Assembly (NCBI GenBank): GCA_030433135.1
Contig: JAUILF010000010.1
Span: 1 to 36,619, forward strand
Source of the DNA: Bacteroidia bacterium
GTDB taxonomy: Bacteria > Bacteroidota > Bacteroidia > Chitinophagales > Saprospiraceae
Direction: 5' to 3'
Length of the DNA: 36,619 nt
The first letter of the stretch is position 1. The number at the start of each line of letters is the position of its first letter. Shown piece after piece: positions 4,639 to 34,955 of this stretch. The translations under genes were made by a program, and so were the position numbers. The notes below the pieces were generated by a model. The model did not search any database, had not been told where the DNA came from, and saw only the letters and a program-made list of their open reading frames with translations.

Positions 4639-5388
4639 TTAATTGGTAGGGACTACCAGTCTTATAATAAAGTACAGGAGAGACGGGCAAAGCAAGACTC
4701 CCAGTCCGGTATAGAAAGTAGCCGTGAGAGCGCCGTAGGGCACCAGCTTTACATCAGTGGCAGCCAGGCCGGCAGCAACCCCACTGGTCGTACCGATCAG
4801 ACCACCGAACACCATGGCTGCATTGGGATTGTCAAGTCCTATTCTTGATGCCATGAATGGTGTCATGATGGTGGTTACCACCGTCTTAATGACACCGGTG
4901 GCAATGCTGATGGCGATAACCTCAGAACTGGCTCCGACGGCAGCACCGGTTACCGGACCCACGATATAGGTACATGCCCCAGCACCTATGGTGGTGATAT
5001 CTCTGGCATCAGTATGACCTGCGAAATAAGCGATCAGGCCTCCCATAATGAAAGCCACCATGATTCCAATTAATAACGAAAGCACGCCTGCCAAACCCGC
5101 TTTCCTGATCTCCGTATAACTGGCACCCATGGCGGTGGCCACTATGGCAAAATCACGAAACATCGAGCCTCCCAAAATGGCCATGCCGGCAAATAGGGGG
5201 TAGCTGGCAATTCCTTTCTCCCCACCAAAGTAGGCCAACACCAGTCCGCTGGTGATGGCGATGGCGGCACCAGGTATTTTTCCCAAAGTTAAATTGCGGG
5301 AGATCCAGTATGATATCCACATCACTAAGCCGACGAAGAGGAAGGCAAAAATTAACCCATTCTTAATCAGTAAATCCTCTATGTTCAT
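4639..5388 (-). CDS. madM: malonate transporter subunit MadM
   Basis: A 249-residue polytopic membrane protein matching the larger subunit of the two-component Na+-dependent malonate transporter MadLM. It starts at MNIEDLLIKNGLIFAFLFVG; a longer frame to 5487 only adds a region overlapping madL. Family features include ISRNLTLGKIPGAAIAITSG, YFGGEKGIASYPLFAGMAIL, GAGACTYIVGPVTGAAVGAS and ANPNAAMVFGGLIGTTSG-like sequence. The ATG overlaps the madL stop codon (ATGA), so translation is probably coupled. With MadL it would import malonate, which the malonyl-CoA synthetase encoded first in the operon would then activate. It is the last gene of the operon. Confidence 0.92.
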   Translation of the reverse strand: MNIEDLLIKNGLIFAFLFVGLVMWISYWISRNLTLGKIPGAAIAITSGLVLAYFGGEKGIASYPLFAGMAILGGSMFRDFAIVATAMGASYTEIRKAGLAGVLSLLIGIMVAFIMGGLIAYFAGHTDARDITTIGAGACTYIVGPVTGAAVGASSEVIAISIATGVIKTVVTTIMTPFMASRIGLDNPNAAMVFGGLIGTTSGVAAGLAATDVKLVPYGALTATFYTGLGVLLCPSLLYFIIRLVVPTN

Positions 5389-5759
5389 GGCCTGCTTCTG
5401 GTGTTGAGTTTTCCCCATCTGGACAGGACAGGCACGAGTAAAAAACAGGCTAAAGTCACACCTACACCGACTATGACGGCTACCCAACCCCCACTTAATG
5501 CAGCCTTGACATTCTGAATAGCAGACATAGCGACAACAATGGGAATATACATTCCACTCCAGAATAAGATGCCCTGAGCAGTATTTTCCGAAATAGAATC
5601 CTTCTTTTGGGCTATGGTGTTGATCAGTATCAACAGCGCCATGGCAAATCCCACACCTCCCACATCACCATCGATTTCAAGGAGGTAACCAAGAAATGAA
5701 CCCAGTAATTTACCGGCCAGAAAACACGCTGCCAGTACAGCAACACCATAGATTTTCAT
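5385..5759 (-). CDS. madL: malonate transporter subunit MadL
   Basis: A 124-residue inner-membrane protein with about four transmembrane segments, matching the small subunit of the malonate transporter. The N-terminus MKIYGVAVLAACFLAGKLLG is typical, as are the DGDVGGVGFAMALLILI motif and SGMYIPIVVAMSAIQNVKAA. It works as an obligate pair with MadM. Its ATG lies 3 bp after the stop of the malonyl-CoA synthetase gene and its stop overlaps the madM start, so the three genes form one compact operon. Length is normal for the family. Confidence 0.93.
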   Translation of the reverse strand: MKIYGVAVLAACFLAGKLLGSFLGYLLEIDGDVGGVGFAMALLILINTIAQKKDSISENTAQGILFWSGMYIPIVVAMSAIQNVKAALSGGWVAVIVGVGVTLACFLLVPVLSRWGKLNTRSRP

Positions 5760-5762
5760 ATG

Positions 5763-7247
5763 CTAGTTTTTAGTGAACAAGGACTGTAGCTCTTTTTTGG
5801 TCACTTTTCCCATGGTGTTTCGCGGTAAGTCATCCAGCAAGATATACTTCCGAGGAACTTTATAGCCTGGCAGGCGGTCTTTCAGCCAGTTCTTTAGTTC
5901 TTCAGGATTGAAATTTTCATCGCTCACTACGATGCCTGCAACAACCAACTCTCCCCATTCTTCATCTGGCGTTCCCACTACACCACAGTCTTTAACAACC
6001 GGATGAGTACGCAGTATTTCTTCAATTTCCAGAGCAGATATTTTGTAACCACCGGATTTGATAATATCTACTGAATTGCGGCCCAGAATACGATAATAAC
6101 CCTCCTCCAATTGAGCAATATCTCCGGTTAGAAACCAGCCATCTTCAGTAAAGGCCTCTTGAGTGGCATCAGGTCGATTCCAGTATTCCCGAAACACATT
6201 ATCGCCTTTAACCTGGATTTCACCGGGTGTCCCTTCCTCAACCAATTTCTTATCTTCATCTACCAGTCGAACCGAGACTCCGGGAAGTGGTTGACCAATA
6301 TGCCCTGGACGCCGCTCACCGCGATATGGATTACTTATGGCCATCCCCATCTCAGTCATGCCATATCTTTCCAATAGAGTTTGTCCACTGATATGCCTCC
6401 ACTTTTCCAGGGTAGATACGGGTAGTGCGGCTGATCCCGATACCATCAGACGAAAATTGCTAAGACGATTAGAAATTACGTTTTGATCTTCCTTGTCCAG
6501 ATTTTCCCAATATCCTATCAGTTTATAGTAGATAGTGGGCACGGCCATAAACAGATTGACTTCACCTTTTCTGAAAGTATCGAAAACGGCTTTGGCATCG
6601 AATGATGGCAGGAATTCACAACAGGCACCAGACCAGAGTGCGCAACTCAATACGTTAATGATACCATGCACATGATGAAGAGGCAATATATTCAGGATAT
6701 GGTCATCTTCTTGCCATTCCCAGGCTTCGACCAGTGCAGTAATCTGCGCTTCAATATTTAGGTGGGTGCTAACCACCCCTTTGGGTTTGCCGGTGGTGCC
6801 GCTGGTGTATAGGATCATGGCCCTGCTGCTCTCCGGAACGGTAGGTAGCCGTTGATCATATTGTAAAGGAGTTTTGATATTTTGGACTGGAATGCCCAAT
6901 TTCTGACCAAGAGGTTGCAATGTGGGGATGAATTCTTCGGAGGCTAAAACAGTGGAGATCTGCGCGTCCTCGAGAACGTATTGAATCGATGGTGGGGGAT
7001 AGGTCACGCAAATGGGCACAGCAATTCCGCCAGCTCTCCAGATGGCCCATTGAGTTTTGACATACTCGTAGCCAGGTTTTACCATAAACCCGATGGTGCT
7101 TTCCTTAAGACTGTGCTTACCCTGCAGCAAAGATTTGGACAGTGCTGCACTATCTTCAAGCAATTGGGCATAGCTATACATTCCAGCCGGATCAACTATG
7201 GCAGTTTGCTTAGAGTGTTGTTCAGCCCTTTCAAAGATTTTAAGCAT
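5763..7247 (-). CDS. matB: malonyl-CoA synthetase (AMP-forming acyl-CoA synthetase, MatB/ACSF3-like)
   Basis: A 494-residue ANL-superfamily enzyme expected to make malonyl-CoA from malonate, ATP and CoA in the cytosol. The phosphate-binding loop YTSGTTGKPKG is at residues 147-157, LPLHHVHGI near 190, and the adenylation signature YGMTEMGMAISNPYRGERR near 295. GWFLTGDIA and the hinge RNSVDIIKSGGYKISALEIE follow, and the C-terminal catalytic lysine lies in NTMGKVTKKEL. The YGMTEMGM...RRPGHIGQPLPGV block resembles characterised MatB enzymes more than general fatty acyl-CoA ligases, and adjacency to madLM supports malonate as substrate. It is the first gene of the operon and starts about 50 bp from the tRNA terminator. 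No malonyl-CoA decarboxylase is nearby, so the product may feed fatty acid or polyketide synthesis. Confidence 0.9.
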   Translation of the reverse strand: MLKIFERAEQHSKQTAIVDPAGMYSYAQLLEDSAALSKSLLQGKHSLKESTIGFMVKPGYEYVKTQWAIWRAGGIAVPICVTYPPPSIQYVLEDAQISTVLASEEFIPTLQPLGQKLGIPVQNIKTPLQYDQRLPTVPESSRAMILYTSGTTGKPKGVVSTHLNIEAQITALVEAWEWQEDDHILNILPLHHVHGIINVLSCALWSGACCEFLPSFDAKAVFDTFRKGEVNLFMAVPTIYYKLIGYWENLDKEDQNVISNRLSNFRLMVSGSAALPVSTLEKWRHISGQTLLERYGMTEMGMAISNPYRGERRPGHIGQPLPGVSVRLVDEDKKLVEEGTPGEIQVKGDNVFREYWNRPDATQEAFTEDGWFLTGDIAQLEEGYYRILGRNSVDIIKSGGYKISALEIEEILRTHPVVKDCGVVGTPDEEWGELVVAGIVVSDENFNPEELKNWLKDRLPGYKVPRKYILLDDLPRNTMGKVTKKELQSLFTKN

Positions 7248-7296
7248 TCACTGAATATAGGAAATCAAGCGGGGAAGGTCACGAATGAATACCAAC

Positions 7297-7328
7297 AAAA
7301 AAAGCCCACCTGTTTGTAAGATGAGCTT
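7297..7328 (-). terminator. rho-independent terminator of the tRNA-Asp transcript
   Basis: On the minus strand AAGCTCATC (7328-7320) pairs along its full length with GGTGGGCTT (7310-7302), counting two or more G-U pairs, around a 9-nt loop. A run of seven T follows (7303-7297). It lies 9 bp after the CCA end of tRNA-Asp. Confidence 0.75.
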
Positions 7329-7336
7329 CTCTTAGT

Positions 7337-7413
7337 TGGCGGTCCGGACGGGACTCGAACCCGCGACCCCATGCGTGACAGGCATGTATTCTAACCAACT
7401 GAACTACCGGACC
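7337..7413 (-). tRNA. tRNA-Asp (anticodon GTC)
   Basis: On the minus strand the acceptor arm GGTCCGG (7413-7407) pairs with CCGGACC (7347-7341). A D-arm follows (GTTC...GAAT), then the anticodon stem CATGC/GCATG around loop CTGTCAC, giving anticodon GTC, then a T-arm with GGTTCGAGTCC, discriminator G and an encoded CCA (7339-7337). All stems close, so this copy should be functional. Its upstream flank and 5' half are repeated three more times upstream in altered form. Confidence 0.96.
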
Positions 7414-7716
7414 AAACTTTCAAACGGTCTGCAGCTAAGGTGGTTAAAAGGAACTGCGAAACTGCGACCCTCCCGCCCTGGCGGGATATTCTAACCAACT
7501 GAACTACCGGACCAAACTTTCAAACGGTCTGCAGCTAAGGTGGTTAAAAGGAACTGCGAAACTGCGACCCTCCCGCCCTGGCGGGATATTCTAACCAACT
7601 GAACTACCGGACCAAACTTTTCAAACGGTCTGCAGCTAAGGAGGTAGAAAGGAATCGCGAAACTGCGACCCTCCCGCCCTGGCGGGATATTCTAACCAAC
7701 TGAACTACCGGACCAA
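7387..7716 (-). repeat. tandem 100-101 bp array of tRNA-Asp 5'-half copies with palindrome in place of the anticodon arm
   Basis: The unit repeats with starts at 7387, 7487, 7587 and 7688; the first two full units are identical and the third has a few changes plus one extra base. On the minus strand each upstream unit keeps the first 28 nt of the tRNA region, including GGTCCGGTAGTTCAGTTGG. In place of the 17-nt anticodon arm it then has TCCCGCCAGGGCGGGA, a perfect 7-bp hairpin. After this comes GGGTCGC, as in the true tRNA, then a degenerate T-arm-like stretch, no matching 3' acceptor strand, and the tRNA leader again. The hairpins are at 7471-7486, 7571-7586 and 7672-7687. The three extra copies lie upstream of the real tRNA in its transcription direction. 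They cannot fold as full tRNAs because the 3' acceptor strand is missing. Confidence 0.9.
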
Positions 7717-7726
7717 TTGTCAATCA

Positions 7727-7752
7727 ATCGTTGATAAACGATCTACTTTTTT
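7727..7752. other. hairpin with adjacent T-run, just upstream of the tRNA array
   Basis: ATCGTT-GATA-AACGAT (7727-7742) is a perfect 6-bp stem with a 4-nt loop. On the plus strand it is followed after 4 nt by six T (7747-7752), which resembles a plus-strand terminator, but there is no plus-strand gene before it. For the minus-strand tRNA transcript it would lie in the leader. Confidence 0.35.
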
Positions 7753-7791
7753 GCAGCGTGATTCCCTTTGGAGTAACGCTTTGTTTTTAGG

Positions 7792-7829
7792 ACCCTGTCC
7801 GCCGAAGCCTTGGCGAAGGCGGAAGGGTT
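7792..7829. repeat. GC-rich palindromic element (REP-like)
   Basis: TCCGCC...GGCGGA (7798-7823) with an imperfect inner palindrome is extended by flanking ACCCT and AGGGT arms. The core, with CCGAAGCC and GGCGAAGG, resembles short palindromes dispersed in many Bacteroidota intergenic regions. It shares the GC-rich hairpin character of the palindrome inside the tRNA array but not its sequence. Confidence 0.5.
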
Positions 7830-7831
7830 TG

Positions 7832-7839
7832 CAAATGTA
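7832..7839 (-). promoter_or_regulatory. possible -7 box for the tRNA-Asp locus
   Basis: TACATTTG on the minus strand matches TAnnTTTG exactly. No TTTG lies at the expected distance upstream; a TTTTG is only 11 bp away. Transcription from it would run through the palindromic element and the array into tRNA-Asp. Confidence 0.25.
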
Positions 7840-8192
7840 ATAACGTTTTTCAAAAGATAGGCTAATCAGTTGAGAAAAAATTGCTCTTGTGCAGAGCATT
7901 CCTCTTTAGACGGGCAAAAAACATTACTGATAAAGAACATTTAGCCGTATATGTAATCATAATTTGGCGAAAAGTGATCTCTTGAATGATGATTTCGCCA
8001 GTTAAGATCATAGGCGCGAGACTTCGGGAGGCCAGGATTTTAGTTTGGATCATTAGAAAGCCCAATGGCGAAATTTACTACTATCATTGGAAGACGCCAG
8101 GGTCCAGCTCACTATATGGAGAAAAGAAAACATGCACAGTCAGGAGATGGTGGATGGCGAGGTCCTGCTGGAGGATATGATTTGTTGAGGTC

Positions 8193-8618
8193 CTACTCTG
8201 CCAACAAATTCAACATTTCATAGACCGCATTCACTGCATTTTCAGTGGCTCCTTCCAAACGTGGTTCAATCTGAGTAGGGAAGACCTCCGGTCCAATAAT
8301 GCCTACTCCCATAGGCTTTTCATACTCGAGTTGGAGTTGGATGAAAGCTTTAATCACAGCATCACCCATCACATACCCATGTTTGGTCTCTCCCCTTTCG
8401 ATAATACCTAATACAACAACTCCGTCGATGTCCGGGTCTTGTAATAGTTTCTTTACAATCAAAGGTTTTTCCATGGAGCCCGGTACCCATATCTCCCTGG
8501 TAATCGTCAAAGACCTTTCCTGAGCAACCTTGTGACATGTTTTTTGCATTTGCAACATCTGATCCTGATGGAAGCTTCCCAATACCACGGCTATTTTGTG
8601 ATTCATCTTCTTTCTCAT
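8193..8618 (-). CDS. ribH: 6,7-dimethyl-8-ribityllumazine synthase, archaeal-type
   Basis: A 141-residue protein of the lumazine synthase family, which condenses 5-amino-6-ribitylamino-uracil with 3,4-dihydroxybutanone phosphate in riboflavin synthesis. Visible motifs are VPGSMEKPLIVKKLL (substrate loop, near 45-58), VLGIIERGETKHGYVM with the catalytic-type His near residue 80, and KPMGVGIIGPEVFPTQIEPR, whose Arg near 120 corresponds to the conserved phosphate-binding Arg. The GIIGPE...TQIEPR ending and the short length resemble archaeal enzymes more than the usual bacterial form (VLTTDTLEQA type). The start is either 8618, directly abutting the GNAT stop, or ATG 8606 (MNHKIAVVLG). It is last in a four-gene operon with no other riboflavin gene, so it may be an accessory copy or have shifted specificity. 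Confidence 0.85.
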   Translation of the reverse strand: MRKKMNHKIAVVLGSFHQDQMLQMQKTCHKVAQERSLTITREIWVPGSMEKPLIVKKLLQDPDIDGVVVLGIIERGETKHGYVMGDAVIKAFIQLQLEYEKPMGVGIIGPEVFPTQIEPRLEGATENAVNAVYEMLNLLAE

Positions 8619-9053
8619 TTAGTGTCCATTGCGCCAGATGCGCATTCCCGGACAATCATCCGGATAGGTTTCGAAGCCGAATTTAGCATAAAATTGCTCC
8701 AATCCCGGTGCCGTCATCAAACCAATGAAACATCCGGAATGCTTTGGAGCCTGATCCAGTACAAACTCCATTAGAGTTTCGACTATCGCAGTTCCTACCC
8801 CCAGATTTTGATAGGCAGGATCGACCAGGATGTCCTGCAAATAGAAGTACATGGCCCCATCCCCTACGACTCTGCCACATCCAATAACCTCACCATTTCG
8901 CCTGGCATGAATGCAATGTAAGGAATGCTCAAGTGCTTCCGAAGACCTTTCCAGGTCCACAGTATGCCAGCCCACAGCCTCTCTCAGTTCTTGATAGGCC
9001 CTGGCAGTGGGTGGTCCCGGCACGATCTTGATATCATCGGGCAATGCTTTCAT
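8619..9053 (-). CDS. GNAT family N-acetyltransferase
   Basis: A 144-residue acetyl-CoA-dependent acyltransferase fold. Motif A is clear: YLQDILVDPAYQNLGVGTAI at residues 71-90, with the pyrophosphate-binding loop QNLGVG, followed by the helix VETLMEFVLDQA. Motif B-like sequence APGLEQFYAKFGFETYPDD gives the usual C-terminal strand-helix. The N-terminal LREAVGWHTVDLERSSEAL resembles the group of small GNATs annotated as putative acetyltransferases of unknown substrate. The ATG overlaps the stop of the deaminase gene by 4 nt (ATGA) and its stop abuts the lumazine synthase start, so the three are translationally linked. Substrate cannot be read from the sequence. Confidence 0.88.
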   Translation of the reverse strand: MKALPDDIKIVPGPPTARAYQELREAVGWHTVDLERSSEALEHSLHCIHARRNGEVIGCGRVVGDGAMYFYLQDILVDPAYQNLGVGTAIVETLMEFVLDQAPKHSGCFIGLMTAPGLEQFYAKFGFETYPDDCPGMRIWRNGH

Positions 9054-9493
9054 CCGTCTTCTCCTATATCTTCATTCCAAAGTTCAGGATTGCTCCGGAT
9101 AAATTCTTCCATGAGATGCACACATTTAGGATCATTAAGGACTACTACTTCCACGCCCTGACTTTTCAGCAGGTCTTCTGACCCCTTGAAGGTGCGATTT
9201 TCACCTATGACTACTTTAGGAATTCCATAAAGCAGAATAGTGCCGGTGCACATAGGGCAGGGAGACAGGGTCGTGTACAAGGTTGATTCCTGGTACACTC
9301 TGGCCGGTTGTCTTCCCGCATTTTCCAGGGCATCCATTTCCCCATGACGGATCACACTACCCTGCTGTGCTCTTTTGTTGTACCCACGACCCAGGATCTT
9401 GCCATGGTGGACAATGACACTGCCGATCGGAATCCCGCCTTCTGCCAATCCAATGCGGGCCTGATTTACTGCTTCCTGAAAAAAATTGTCCAT
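9050..9493 (-). CDS. cytosine deaminase, fungal Fcy1-like
   Basis: A 147-residue zinc-dependent deaminase expected to convert cytosine to uracil and ammonia. The zinc site is HGE (residues 50-52, with Glu52 as proton shuttle) and PCPMC (Cys79 and Cys82). The similarity goes beyond the general CDA fold: GYNKRAQQGSVIRHGEMDAL, TTLSPCPMCTGTILLYGIP, VVIGENRTFKG, and the C-terminal WNEDIGE match yeast cytosine deaminase FCY1, including the substrate-binding Asn (Asn39) and the acidic C-terminal lid. This makes free cytosine a more likely substrate than guanine or tRNA adenosine. It is the second gene of the operon, 54 bp after the symporter gene, and overlaps the GNAT gene. Confidence 0.88.
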   Translation of the reverse strand: MDNFFQEAVNQARIGLAEGGIPIGSVIVHHGKILGRGYNKRAQQGSVIRHGEMDALENAGRQPARVYQESTLYTTLSPCPMCTGTILLYGIPKVVIGENRTFKGSEDLLKSQGVEVVVLNDPKCVHLMEEFIRSNPELWNEDIGEDG

Positions 9494-9547
9494 ACTCTAA
9501 AGATAAAGTTCCTCGGGAAGGATTACCAATCACCGGTATGACATCTG

Positions 9548-11038
9548 CTATGACCCACCGGGTTTCCTTTTATTTTCTGAAAGACTAAACAGTACTCCAA
9601 TTACCAGTGCAAGTAGGAAGGAGGGAAACATCACATCCATTTTCTCAAACAAAACGCCCACCTCCGGGAGCTTTGTAAATCCGAACTTAAACAAAATCAC
9701 TCCAACAAATCCGCTGACCATGGAGGCTATGGCTCCTTTTTCTGTGTATCCGGACCAGAAAAGGGACAGAATGATCACCGGGCAGAAAGTAGCAGCAATA
9801 CCTGACCATCCAAATATAACAAACCAGAAAATGGTGCGACCGGGTGACAAGACAGAGACAACAAGGGAAATTGTGAGAGCCAATAAAGCCAGTATCACGG
9901 TAATCCTGCGTGAGAAATGAGTGAGTTCATGATCTGACTTGTCCGGATGCAGGATCTTTTGATAATAATCCCGAACGACTGCACTTGAAGCAACTACCAA
10001 TAGCGAATCAATAGTGGACATGATCGCTGCCAGGACTACAGCTACATAGAGTCCGGCAAGAAGGACCGGTAGGGTCAGATTCACCAACAGGGGTAATACA
10101 TTCTGAGCATTATTTCCCAAAACGACTTCAACATCCAGGGTGGGATCTTCAAAGAGGTACCTGCCCATCATGCCAATGAGTACTGCCGCAGAGTCTGTGA
10201 TCAAAGTAAACAGTATGGCTACCCAACGGCCTTTGTTGATTTCAGCCTCATCACGGATGGAAATAAATCGTACAAATACCTGGGGTGATCCCATGAATCC
10301 CAGGCCGATCATTGCAAACCCCAAAATGGCAAAACCGTTCTCGAGGGTTAATCCTCCAGGCCCCCAGATGTTGGTCAAGCCGGGATCAATCTCCCTCAGC
10401 CCTTCGATCAGACCAGGGCCGGAGAGATATGTCCAGCCTACCAGGGGCAGAGTCACTAATCCCAAAAGCATAAGCATGCCCTGGAAAAGATCAGACCAGG
10501 CTACCGCTACAAACCCTCCCATGAAGATGTAGGCCAGTACCAGTAGAAACCCAATGATGGCCCCCGCATAGTAATTCCAGTCCAGGAACGCTTCAAAAGC
10601 AGATCCCGTCGCATCAATCTGAGCACTGACATAAATAACCACGAATACCGTAAGTACAAAGGCTGATAATTTACGTAGAGTATGGGTTGTACTTGCAAAT
10701 CGGCTGGTTAAATAGTCAGGGATGGTAATGGACTGAAACTGATCTGTTTGTTTCTTAAATGGTTTGGCCATAAGCAGCCAGGCTACACTCACACCTAGTA
10801 CTTCTCCCAGGACAATCCAGAAAGCATTGACTCCGGCTATAGCACCAGCACCGGTAAGACCCAACAAGAGCCAGGCAGACTCACCTGTAGCACGACTGGA
10901 GAAAGCTACTACCCAGTATCTCAGTTTTTTTCCACCGGCATAATAGTCAACGATGCCTTTGATTTTTCCTGATGCCTTATATCCGATCACAAACAGGATC
11001 AGGAAATAGAGAACCAGAATGATGTAGTTACTGATCAT
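9548..11038 (-). CDS. sodium/solute symporter (SSS family, PutP-like)
   Basis: A 496-residue membrane protein with about 13 transmembrane helices of the sodium:solute symporter family (LeuT fold). The N-terminal block SRATGESAWLLLGLTGAGAI, followed by SITIPDYLTSRFAST, matches Na+/proline symporters. Helix VIII, with MSTIDSLLVVASSAVVRDYY, carries the Ser/Thr Na+ site typical of the family, and WSGIAATFCPVIILSLFWSG is also PutP-like. Proline is the usual substrate of this subgroup, but its position first in an operon with cytosine deaminase and lumazine synthase leaves room for a nucleobase or a related compound. Length is normal. The start at MISNYIILVLYFLILFVIGY gives a correct first helix. 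Confidence 0.88.
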   Translation of the reverse strand: MISNYIILVLYFLILFVIGYKASGKIKGIVDYYAGGKKLRYWVVAFSSRATGESAWLLLGLTGAGAIAGVNAFWIVLGEVLGVSVAWLLMAKPFKKQTDQFQSITIPDYLTSRFASTTHTLRKLSAFVLTVFVVIYVSAQIDATGSAFEAFLDWNYYAGAIIGFLLVLAYIFMGGFVAVAWSDLFQGMLMLLGLVTLPLVGWTYLSGPGLIEGLREIDPGLTNIWGPGGLTLENGFAILGFAMIGLGFMGSPQVFVRFISIRDEAEINKGRWVAILFTLITDSAAVLIGMMGRYLFEDPTLDVEVVLGNNAQNVLPLLVNLTLPVLLAGLYVAVVLAAIMSTIDSLLVVASSAVVRDYYQKILHPDKSDHELTHFSRRITVILALLALTISLVVSVLSPGRTIFWFVIFGWSGIAATFCPVIILSLFWSGYTEKGAIASMVSGFVGVILFKFGFTKLPEVGVLFEKMDVMFPSFLLALVIGVLFSLSENKRKPGGS

Positions 11039-19220: not shown

Positions 19221-19278
19221 GGTGTTGTGGTGCTTTGGTATTGTGGTCTTTTGGTATTGTGGTATTGTGGTATTGTGG
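19221..19278. repeat. short tandem repeat of GGTATTGT
   Basis: Three perfect adjacent copies of GGTATTGT (19253-19276) are preceded by another at 19237-19244 and diverged versions back to 19221. It lies between the NTF2-like gene and the antitoxin gene and is probably prone to slippage. No coding sense is evident on either strand. Confidence 0.85.
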
Positions 19279-34901: not shown

Positions 34902-34927
34902 TAAGAGCATTGGTTTATCGGGATTCA

Positions 34928-34955
34928 CACCCACACTCACACCCACACTCACACC
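34928..34955. repeat. short 12-bp tandem repeat
   Basis: The unit ACCCACACTCAC is repeated about 2.3 times between the converging ends of the kinase and TonB receptor genes. It is a simple low-complexity tract that probably varies in copy number. Confidence 0.8.

Follow-up and report, generated by a model that had tools for sequence, protein, structure and literature searches.

Upstream of a tRNA-Asp gene in a Saprospiraceae bacterium (assembly GCA_030433135.1) stand three further sequences that begin exactly as the tRNA begins and then carry a GC-rich palindrome where its anticodon arm belongs. What produced these broken copies, and why are there several of them? The window, by which we mean the whole stretch of 36,619 nucleotides analyzed from contig JAUILF010000010.1, holds them as a tandem array at 7387-7716 (period 100, 3.3 copies, 97% match, score 616 in TRF) with a probable promoter ahead of it and an intact tRNA-Asp behind it, everything on the minus strand. 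Read on that strand from about 7830 to 7337, the order is leader, three tandem units, intact tRNA-Asp(GTC), and terminator-like hairpin. The initial annotation had reported three units of 100, 100, and 101 bp in the direction of the tRNA transcript, two of them identical, and sequence comparison and TRF bear this out, the identical pair being units 2 and 3. The features are:

7296..7334, minus strand: terminator-like hairpin and T run, 3' of tRNA-Asp (sequence scan)
7337..7413, minus strand: intact tRNA-Asp (GTC), last of the series (ARAGORN; Rfam RF00005, 68.7 bits)
7414..7513, minus strand: unit 3, 100 bp, comprising tRNA to position 26, palindrome, GGGTCGC, and spacer (TRF, sequence comparison)
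7471..7486, no strand: palindrome TCCCGCC-AG-GGCGGGA replacing arm 27-43, unit 3 (sequence search)
7514..7613, minus strand: unit 2, 100 bp, same sequence as unit 3 (TRF, sequence comparison)
7571..7586, no strand: palindrome TCCCGCC-AG-GGCGGGA, unit 2 (sequence search)
7614..7714, minus strand: unit 1, 101 bp, behind the promoter-side leader (TRF, sequence comparison)
7672..7687, no strand: palindrome TCCCGCC-AG-GGCGGGA, unit 1 (sequence search)
7832..7839, minus strand: TAnnTTTG-type -7 element TACATTTG, inferred Bacteroidota promoter (by eye)

On the minus strand, the first unit begins at 7714, the second at 7613, and the third at 7513. Each repeats the tRNA-Asp exactly through position 26 (27 nucleotides, zero changes; the first anticodon base is numbered 34). 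There the 17-nt anticodon arm gives way to TCCCGCCAGGGCGGGA, after which come GGGTCGC and divergent sequence. The palindrome substitutes exactly for tRNA positions 27-43, with junctions at 26 and 44. Unit 1 differs from units 2 and 3 by five substitutions and one indel, all of which sit in the spacer after GGGTCGC. An exact repeat of the leader had also been proposed; units 2 and 3 do share their leader with the intact tRNA-Asp, but unit 1 has the promoter-side leader, which is unlike theirs. The tRNA was the sole Rfam match in the window at gathering score.

The promoter call at 7832..7839 is based on TAnnTTTG, which we take to be the Bacteroidota -7 consensus; inspection by eye revealed no -33 match at the expected distance from this element, and a sigma-70 scan returned nothing at this position. 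The sequence TTACATTTGC also occurs upstream of tRNA-Asp in congener G005 (L006). A second GC-rich imperfect palindrome (around CCGCCTTCGCC-AAGGCTTCGGCGG) occupies 7793-7827, downstream of the probable promoter and ahead of unit 1; no counterpart to it was seen by eye in G005. Short tandem repeats were reported by TRF at 19221-19278 (8 bp, 7.2 copies) and 34925-34955 (12 bp, 2.6 copies) of the window.

Within the 6.3-Mb draft genome, TCCCGCCNNGGCGGGA is confined to the three units and no second locus for the array was found, such that the unit is not a repeat spread widely away from tRNA-Asp; the copy number of the units is known from this one draft of 577 contigs. Among its 34 tRNAs above the Rfam score, 30 were examined for dead copies, which were flagged upstream of tRNA-Asp, Pro-TGG, Leu-CAA, and Leu-TAA and downstream of tRNA-Asn, Arg-CCT, and Ser-TGA. 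The flags raised at Ala, Thr, and Val-GAC correspond, by eye, to neighboring tRNA genes. The tRNA-Pro(TGG) gene on G000:C87 (L098) has a single upstream dead 5' half with TCCCGCCTCAGGCGGGA. Separately, G000:C292 (L052) carries tandem GIY-YIG genes and dead 3' halves, and the tRNA 3' part of two of its three copies is that of the C87 tRNA-Pro(TGG); the C292 array is probably the other side of the C87 locus.

Similar arrangements were identified in other genomes. A locus search of 60 genomes yielded a match in 56. Palindrome-bearing dead 5' halves lie upstream of tRNA-Asp in G012, G014, G015, and G041; such halves carry TCCCG..CGGGA in G014, G242, and G291 and other palindromes in G012, G015, and G041. 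When 40 tRNA-Asp genes were screened automatically, with locus G009 counted twice and some flanks short, dead copies were flagged upstream at L007, L028, L029, L030, and L032 and downstream at L010, L029, L033, and L042, whereas flags at L003, L024, and L035 were intact tandem copies. A palindrome followed by GGGTCGC was detected at 48 places, in 21 of the 396 genomes searched from the order, versus two for the reversed pattern; the match in G369 is by eye a chance match in coding sequence, and two of the three in G176 overlap. The stretches printed from these matches were mostly remnants of tRNA-Asp, -Pro, -Asn, and other tRNAs, with the palindrome in the anticodon arm. A D-arm followed by a palindrome was found at 27 places in 16 of 395 genomes of the phylum, representing 16 genera (reversed pattern, 0). 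Arrays were also identified at tRNA-Met (six units in G697, with a nuclease gene 3' of the tRNA), tRNA-Gly (three units in G744), and tRNA-His (six units in G059). Collectively, these sequence comparisons indicate that the substitution of a palindrome for the arm recurs beside many tRNA isotypes across the Bacteroidota, in arrays of up to six. The proposal that a palindrome replaced the arm of a tRNA copy and that the unit was then amplified is strengthened by this recurrence, related genomes having yielded the same kind of arrays beside other tRNAs.

Congeners G005 and G003 have a tRNA-Asp without any unit, at loci whose synteny with the window is not established; G002 could not be judged. 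Contigs of G005, G008, G010, G012, G021, and G037 end about 130 bp or less from tRNA-Asp, and repeats at this gene perhaps break draft assemblies there. Palindrome-bearing dead copies were miscalled by ARAGORN at L152, L265, and L266 as tRNA-Glu, tRNA-Val, and tRNA-Lys, and the copy in L152 scores 51.1 bits against the Rfam tRNA model. Such remnants can pass into annotations as false tRNA genes.

Many dead copies adjoin a small ORF of the GIY-YIG family, with PF01541 identified in all five of the matched stretches that were scanned. By profile comparison, the solved proteins closest to it are the structure-specific nuclease SLX1 and two members of UPF0213. The columns Y, YxG, R, and E, presumably the GIY-YIG catalytic residues, are invariant across eight aligned nuclease sequences. 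The window's own genome, which is 91% complete, has eight GIY-YIG places. These adjoin tRNA-Asn, -His, -Ser, and -Glu and the remnant array on C292; of the others, one is without a nearby tRNA and one lies in a 602-residue frame that is probably uvrC. None of the eight is linked to tRNA-Asp. No GIY-YIG match was found on the window's contig, which leaves the window without the nuclease gene by which a module is recognized; its array is therefore probably a relic rather than a module.

A protein-alignment search of 40 relatives identified 84 nuclease places in 30 genomes, 15 of which contain internal stops and represent degenerating copies. A nuclease of relative G219, which is placed in the family of the window, is identical to one in the named Saprospiraceae record JALWSS010000080.1, in line with a probable Saprospiraceae host. 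The association with tRNA genes was then counted in loci selected by nuclease similarity alone, comprising a relatives set (52 ORFs) and a named-genome set (22 ORFs). These are distinct ORFs with at least 51 model positions that were first seen in L107-L176 and L177-L201, respectively; ORFs identical to those in earlier-taken loci, frames longer than 260 aa (probably the reason that L184 is absent), and three of the 84 places without a retrieved locus fall outside the two sets. In the relatives set, 28 of the 52 ORFs lie 400 nt or less from a tRNA, nine are cut by the end of a contig or locus, and the other 15 are without one, and in the named-genome set the corresponding numbers are 16, 4, and 2 of 22. 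Among the 15, eight belong to one separate clade and three are later copies in tandem rows that start at a tRNA. The nuclease is on the strand of the tRNA in all 44 tRNA-adjacent ORFs, following it in 19 and preceding it in nine of the relatives set and evenly divided (eight and eight) in the named-genome set. Rfam backs the tRNA in 43 of these 44 cases, with L189 called by ARAGORN only; in L152 the nearest tRNA call is the dead copy, and an intact tRNA-Val lies 53 nt away. GIY-YIG matches in phage and plasmid collections were distant only (<60% identity).

Of the testable ORFs in the two sets, 24 of 27 and 13 of 16 had a dead copy of the same tRNA on their far side, and a palindrome lay at the inner end of this copy in 15 of those 24 and in all 13 (shuffled flanks, 11% and 17%). 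Two forms can be distinguished. In one, a 5' half is followed by a hairpin, the nuclease, and an intact tRNA, as in L178 (tRNA-Asp of Eudoraea) and L184 (tRNA-Pro), and also in L187, L188, and L196 (Patescibacteria), L189 (a Bacteroidetes draft), and L191 (Muriicola); the signal for this form in L186 was not above shuffles. The mirror form, in which an intact tRNA is followed by the nuclease, a hairpin, and a 3' half, is represented by L033, L122, L152, L182, L199, and others. Further tRNA remnants with palindromes or inserts, outside these two forms, were seen in L060 and L080 (G104) and L037 (G013).

Since matches to the two genome patterns require TCCCG..CGGGA, and are hence subject to selection bias, hairpins were recounted on loci not chosen by this pattern. 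Of 83 hairpins, seven whose left junction is at position 72 or later (natural terminators) were dropped, leaving 76 mapped; rows may repeat for overlapping loci, and some are assigned to a neighboring or false tRNA call (L152, L266). The anticodon-arm region is touched by 55 of the 76, and the junctions are exactly 26|44 in 10 of the 29 hairpins with both ends mapped. Others lie at 24|35, 30|44, or 37|50, or within the D and T arms. Hairpin ends are TCCCG..CGGGA in 41 and TCCGC..GCGGA in eight of the 76, and the inner letters vary between genomes, mostly staying complementary. In the window's own genome, the frame TCCCG(2-14)CGGGA occurs at 122 sites versus 45 for the reversed pattern, and this class of palindrome is therefore also present away from tRNAs. 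The palindrome was considered as a fixed element end, which was ruled out as it stays with the dead half both where the nuclease precedes the tRNA and where it follows. Nine contigs of the own genome (L087-L094, L097) share a dispersed repeat with TCCCGCCTTTGGCGGGA or a variant in a common longer context, and no tRNA was found in these stretches.

Phylogenetic reconstruction of the nucleases (100 rows, 79 columns) left 54 of 97 inner branches unresolved. Mapping of tRNA isotype on this tree required 26 changes versus 47.7 in shuffled labels, with none of 200 shuffles as low. Clustering of the Asp, Asn, Met, Pro, and Arg rows exceeded all 500 shuffles and that of the Val rows exceeded 498, and no clustering was detected for Ser and Glu rows. 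A group of 15 rows (support 91) includes the Asp rows of Saprospiraceae, Roseivirga, Algoriphagus, and Eudoraea. A 13-row clade without tRNA neighbors, three of its loci being cut short, provides an internal contrast. Modules adjacent to tRNAs were also identified in Patescibacteria. As judged from this alignment, nuclease lineages track tRNA isotype across families.

Within a single genus, g35, different states of one tRNA-Asn locus can be compared. The locus in G072 has a promoter, a palindrome-bearing dead 5' half, and the tRNA, which is the state of the window, and no nuclease was found within 1.5 kb 3' of the tRNA. In G039, G085, and G059, the dead 5' half and the tRNA are followed by a nuclease and a dead 3' side. 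Each of the two dead parts bears TCCCGCACGTGCGGGA or a close variant, the left junction falling at one tRNA position in both; in G085 the 3' palindrome is shortened on its right. The locus in G107 is without a dead 5' half; its contig stops 59 nt past the tRNA, so that the upstream side alone can be judged. Alleles with and without a recognizable nuclease gene share one syntenic locus within the genus. The same locus (L122, L232-L236) is near the RNase P RNA gene.

These observations can be brought together if the units of the window are a nuclease-less relic of homing modules that split a tRNA gene and restore it, a reading drawn from sequence that we hold to be fairly probable. The three units would be displaced dead 5' halves of tRNA-Asp left after one or more invasions by such a module. 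Complete modules elsewhere sit inside a tRNA gene and read promoter, 5' half, hairpin, GIY-YIG gene, and intact tRNA (e.g., L178), or in mirror form intact tRNA, terminator, GIY-YIG gene, hairpin, and 3' half. The module would bring or recreate a complete tRNA, and the host would therefore survive, with the severed half remaining by the promoter or the terminator. We infer that the nuclease breaks its tRNA gene at, or close to, the anticodon arm and that the module is then copied into the cut gene during repair. The window may subsequently have lost its nuclease, or its array may be a non-autonomous derivative, with recombination then multiplying the 100-bp unit. In principle, a palindrome in the dead copy would leave that copy uncuttable. 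Replacement of one hairpin by another through the nuclease is conceivable, because its nearest solved relatives include the structure-specific SLX1. We count in favor of homing the dead copies across the nuclease, the tree that follows isotype, the allele states in g35, and the decayed nucleases. Dead-half arrays without a visible nuclease occur elsewhere, and a nuclease-independent cause is therefore possible. A bolder version, which we advance only tentatively and think rather doubtful, is that these are 'cleave and rescue' selfish elements in at least two phyla, in which tiny nucleases, with every lineage dedicated to one isotype, break the essential tRNA gene in its anticodon arm and provide an intact copy in return. 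The nuclease, which is SLX1-like, may itself swap the arm for a genome-resident hairpin, and hairpin-capped dead halves would pile up as arrays.

Several other histories might yield the same array. The tRNA-Asp gene could have been duplicated in tandem, with neutral insertion of a genome-resident GC palindrome of the REP kind and expansion by unequal crossing-over, and with the nuclease as a mere neighbor. The presence of TCCCG..CGGGA palindromes elsewhere in the genome, hairpins in D and T arms with varied junctions, and intact tandem tRNA-Asp copies in G020, G023, and G027 are all consistent with such a history, but the concentration of hairpins on the anticodon arm (55 of 76) and at exactly 26|44 (10 of 29) argues against it, as do dead copies across the nuclease (24 of 27 and 13 of 16) and nuclease lineages that follow isotype. 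On balance, we consider neutral insertion unlikely. Duplicated pieces of tRNA near a tRNA commonly mark integrated elements, and debris of a tyrosine-integrase element that used tRNA-Asp as its attachment site might thus be suspected; in L034 (G009), moreover, the intact tRNA-Asp gene is followed some 2 kb downstream by a 3' half of tRNA-Asp. However, no integrase-like ORF was recognized by eye among ORFs of 80 aa or more that overlap 5000-10500, the units are 100 bp and duplicate the 5' half, and attachment does not explain a palindrome that replaces the arm, which makes this origin very improbable. Misassembly is less credible still: the genome is a 577-contig draft in which units 2 and 3 are identical, yet unit 1 carries six changes and the same architecture is present in other genomes, including Algoriphagus vanfongensis DSM 17529 (L182).

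The units might instead be retained as functional RNA, with self-folding 5' halves in the tRNA precursor acting as decoys, insulators, or small RNAs. Because the spacer can pair with the 5' half, the predicted structure of each unit alone is a rod tipped by the palindrome (z -3.07 and -3.23). The sequence after GGGTCGC had been described as decaying; it does diverge, but it can also fold back on the 5' half. In the window this pairing is better than in dinucleotide shuffles (duplex p 0.014; spacer-shuffle z -3.16 and -2.7), and the confinement of the differences between units to the spacer would likewise fit a functional RNA. A first fold-back test over 29 units gave a mean z of -1.53, with 13 below -1.64. 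Taking one unit per locus, however, fold-back at p<0.05 was seen in just six of 21 loci (combined p 6e-5), versus four of 21 (p 0.006) in the reversed-sequence control. At equilibrium in the whole transcript, the tRNA acceptor stem is predicted to form with a probability of 0.98 when the units are absent and 0.18 when they are present, a drop that would be interference. The value of 0.18 falls inside the range given by 25 shuffled spacers (mean 0.31); with the native arm in place of the palindromes the probability is 0.05. A general claim that the units act as an RNA insulator was dropped, given the six of 21 loci, a reversed control that was also low, and the lack of protection in the whole-transcript fold. 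The initial annotation had suggested RNase P decoys or stable small RNAs. The predicted fold of a unit is a rod rather than a cloverleaf, the whole-transcript fold points to neither a decoy nor an insulator, and a decoy function is unsupported by these models. We regard functional RNA as an improbable explanation. Modules of a GIY-YIG nuclease adjacent to a tRNA are a better account of the units than the isolated insertion first envisaged.

Homing genes of the GIY-YIG family, including tRNA-linked examples in phages, are already known. SegB is a free-standing GIY-YIG homing endonuclease of phages T4 and T6 in the tRNA region (PMC13096335; PMC2988022), and it is needed for tandem amplification of a tRNA-containing segment in phage T6 (PMC13096335). 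It resembles the modules described here in that a GIY-YIG nuclease adjoins tRNA genes, and it provides a GIY-YIG precedent for tandem multiplication of a tRNA segment. It differs in being phage-borne and in its stated target, the tRNA intergenic region, and the passages on SegB in these accounts mention neither hairpin-bearing dead tRNA halves nor isotype-tied nuclease lineages in bacterial chromosomes. The mobile ORFs of fungal mitochondria (Allomyces and Glomus atp6; Glomus atp9, cox2, and nad3) set a precedent for an essential gene that is split and given a new end. According to the relevant passages, an endonuclease element splits the gene and provides the replacement, the native end being displaced; the element in Glomus atp9 is of the GIY-YIG type (PMC3630166). 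In those passages the targets are mitochondrial protein genes and the C-terminal end is replaced, whereas the modules described here involve tRNA genes, either end, and palindromes in the displaced part. The tRNA and gene-neighborhood passages of a phylogenomic survey of the GIY-YIG family are silent on such modules, and the word 'palindrome' is absent there (PMC1564403). Among the best matches in open-licence PubMed Central full text, a collection distinct from subscription papers and preprints, we found no description of isotype-linked chromosomal modules with palindrome-bearing dead tRNA halves.

Two bacterial repeat families also invite comparison. REP and REPIN palindromes, which are associated with RAYT transposases, are short, GC-rich, and genome-resident, as are the palindromes considered here, although the exact palindrome of the window is limited to its three units. 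The rtT repeats of Escherichia coli tyrT contain the 3' end of the tRNA, lie downstream of the gene, and are not known to carry a hairpin for the anticodon arm. They are likewise tandem repeats with part of a tRNA gene inside a tRNA transcription unit, but the repeats of the window hold the 5' half, lie upstream, and carry a hairpin in place of the arm.

If the units are the relic of tRNA-splitting and tRNA-restoring modules, many tRNA loci in Bacteroidota and Patescibacteria would be battlegrounds of minimal homing elements that live by breaking an essential gene and then restoring it. This would account both for odd tRNA fragments in tandem and for false tRNA calls, and the specificity of a nuclease of about 80-100 residues for one tRNA gene would become testable. 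The dead halves left beside intact tRNAs would constitute a readable fossil record of such elements.
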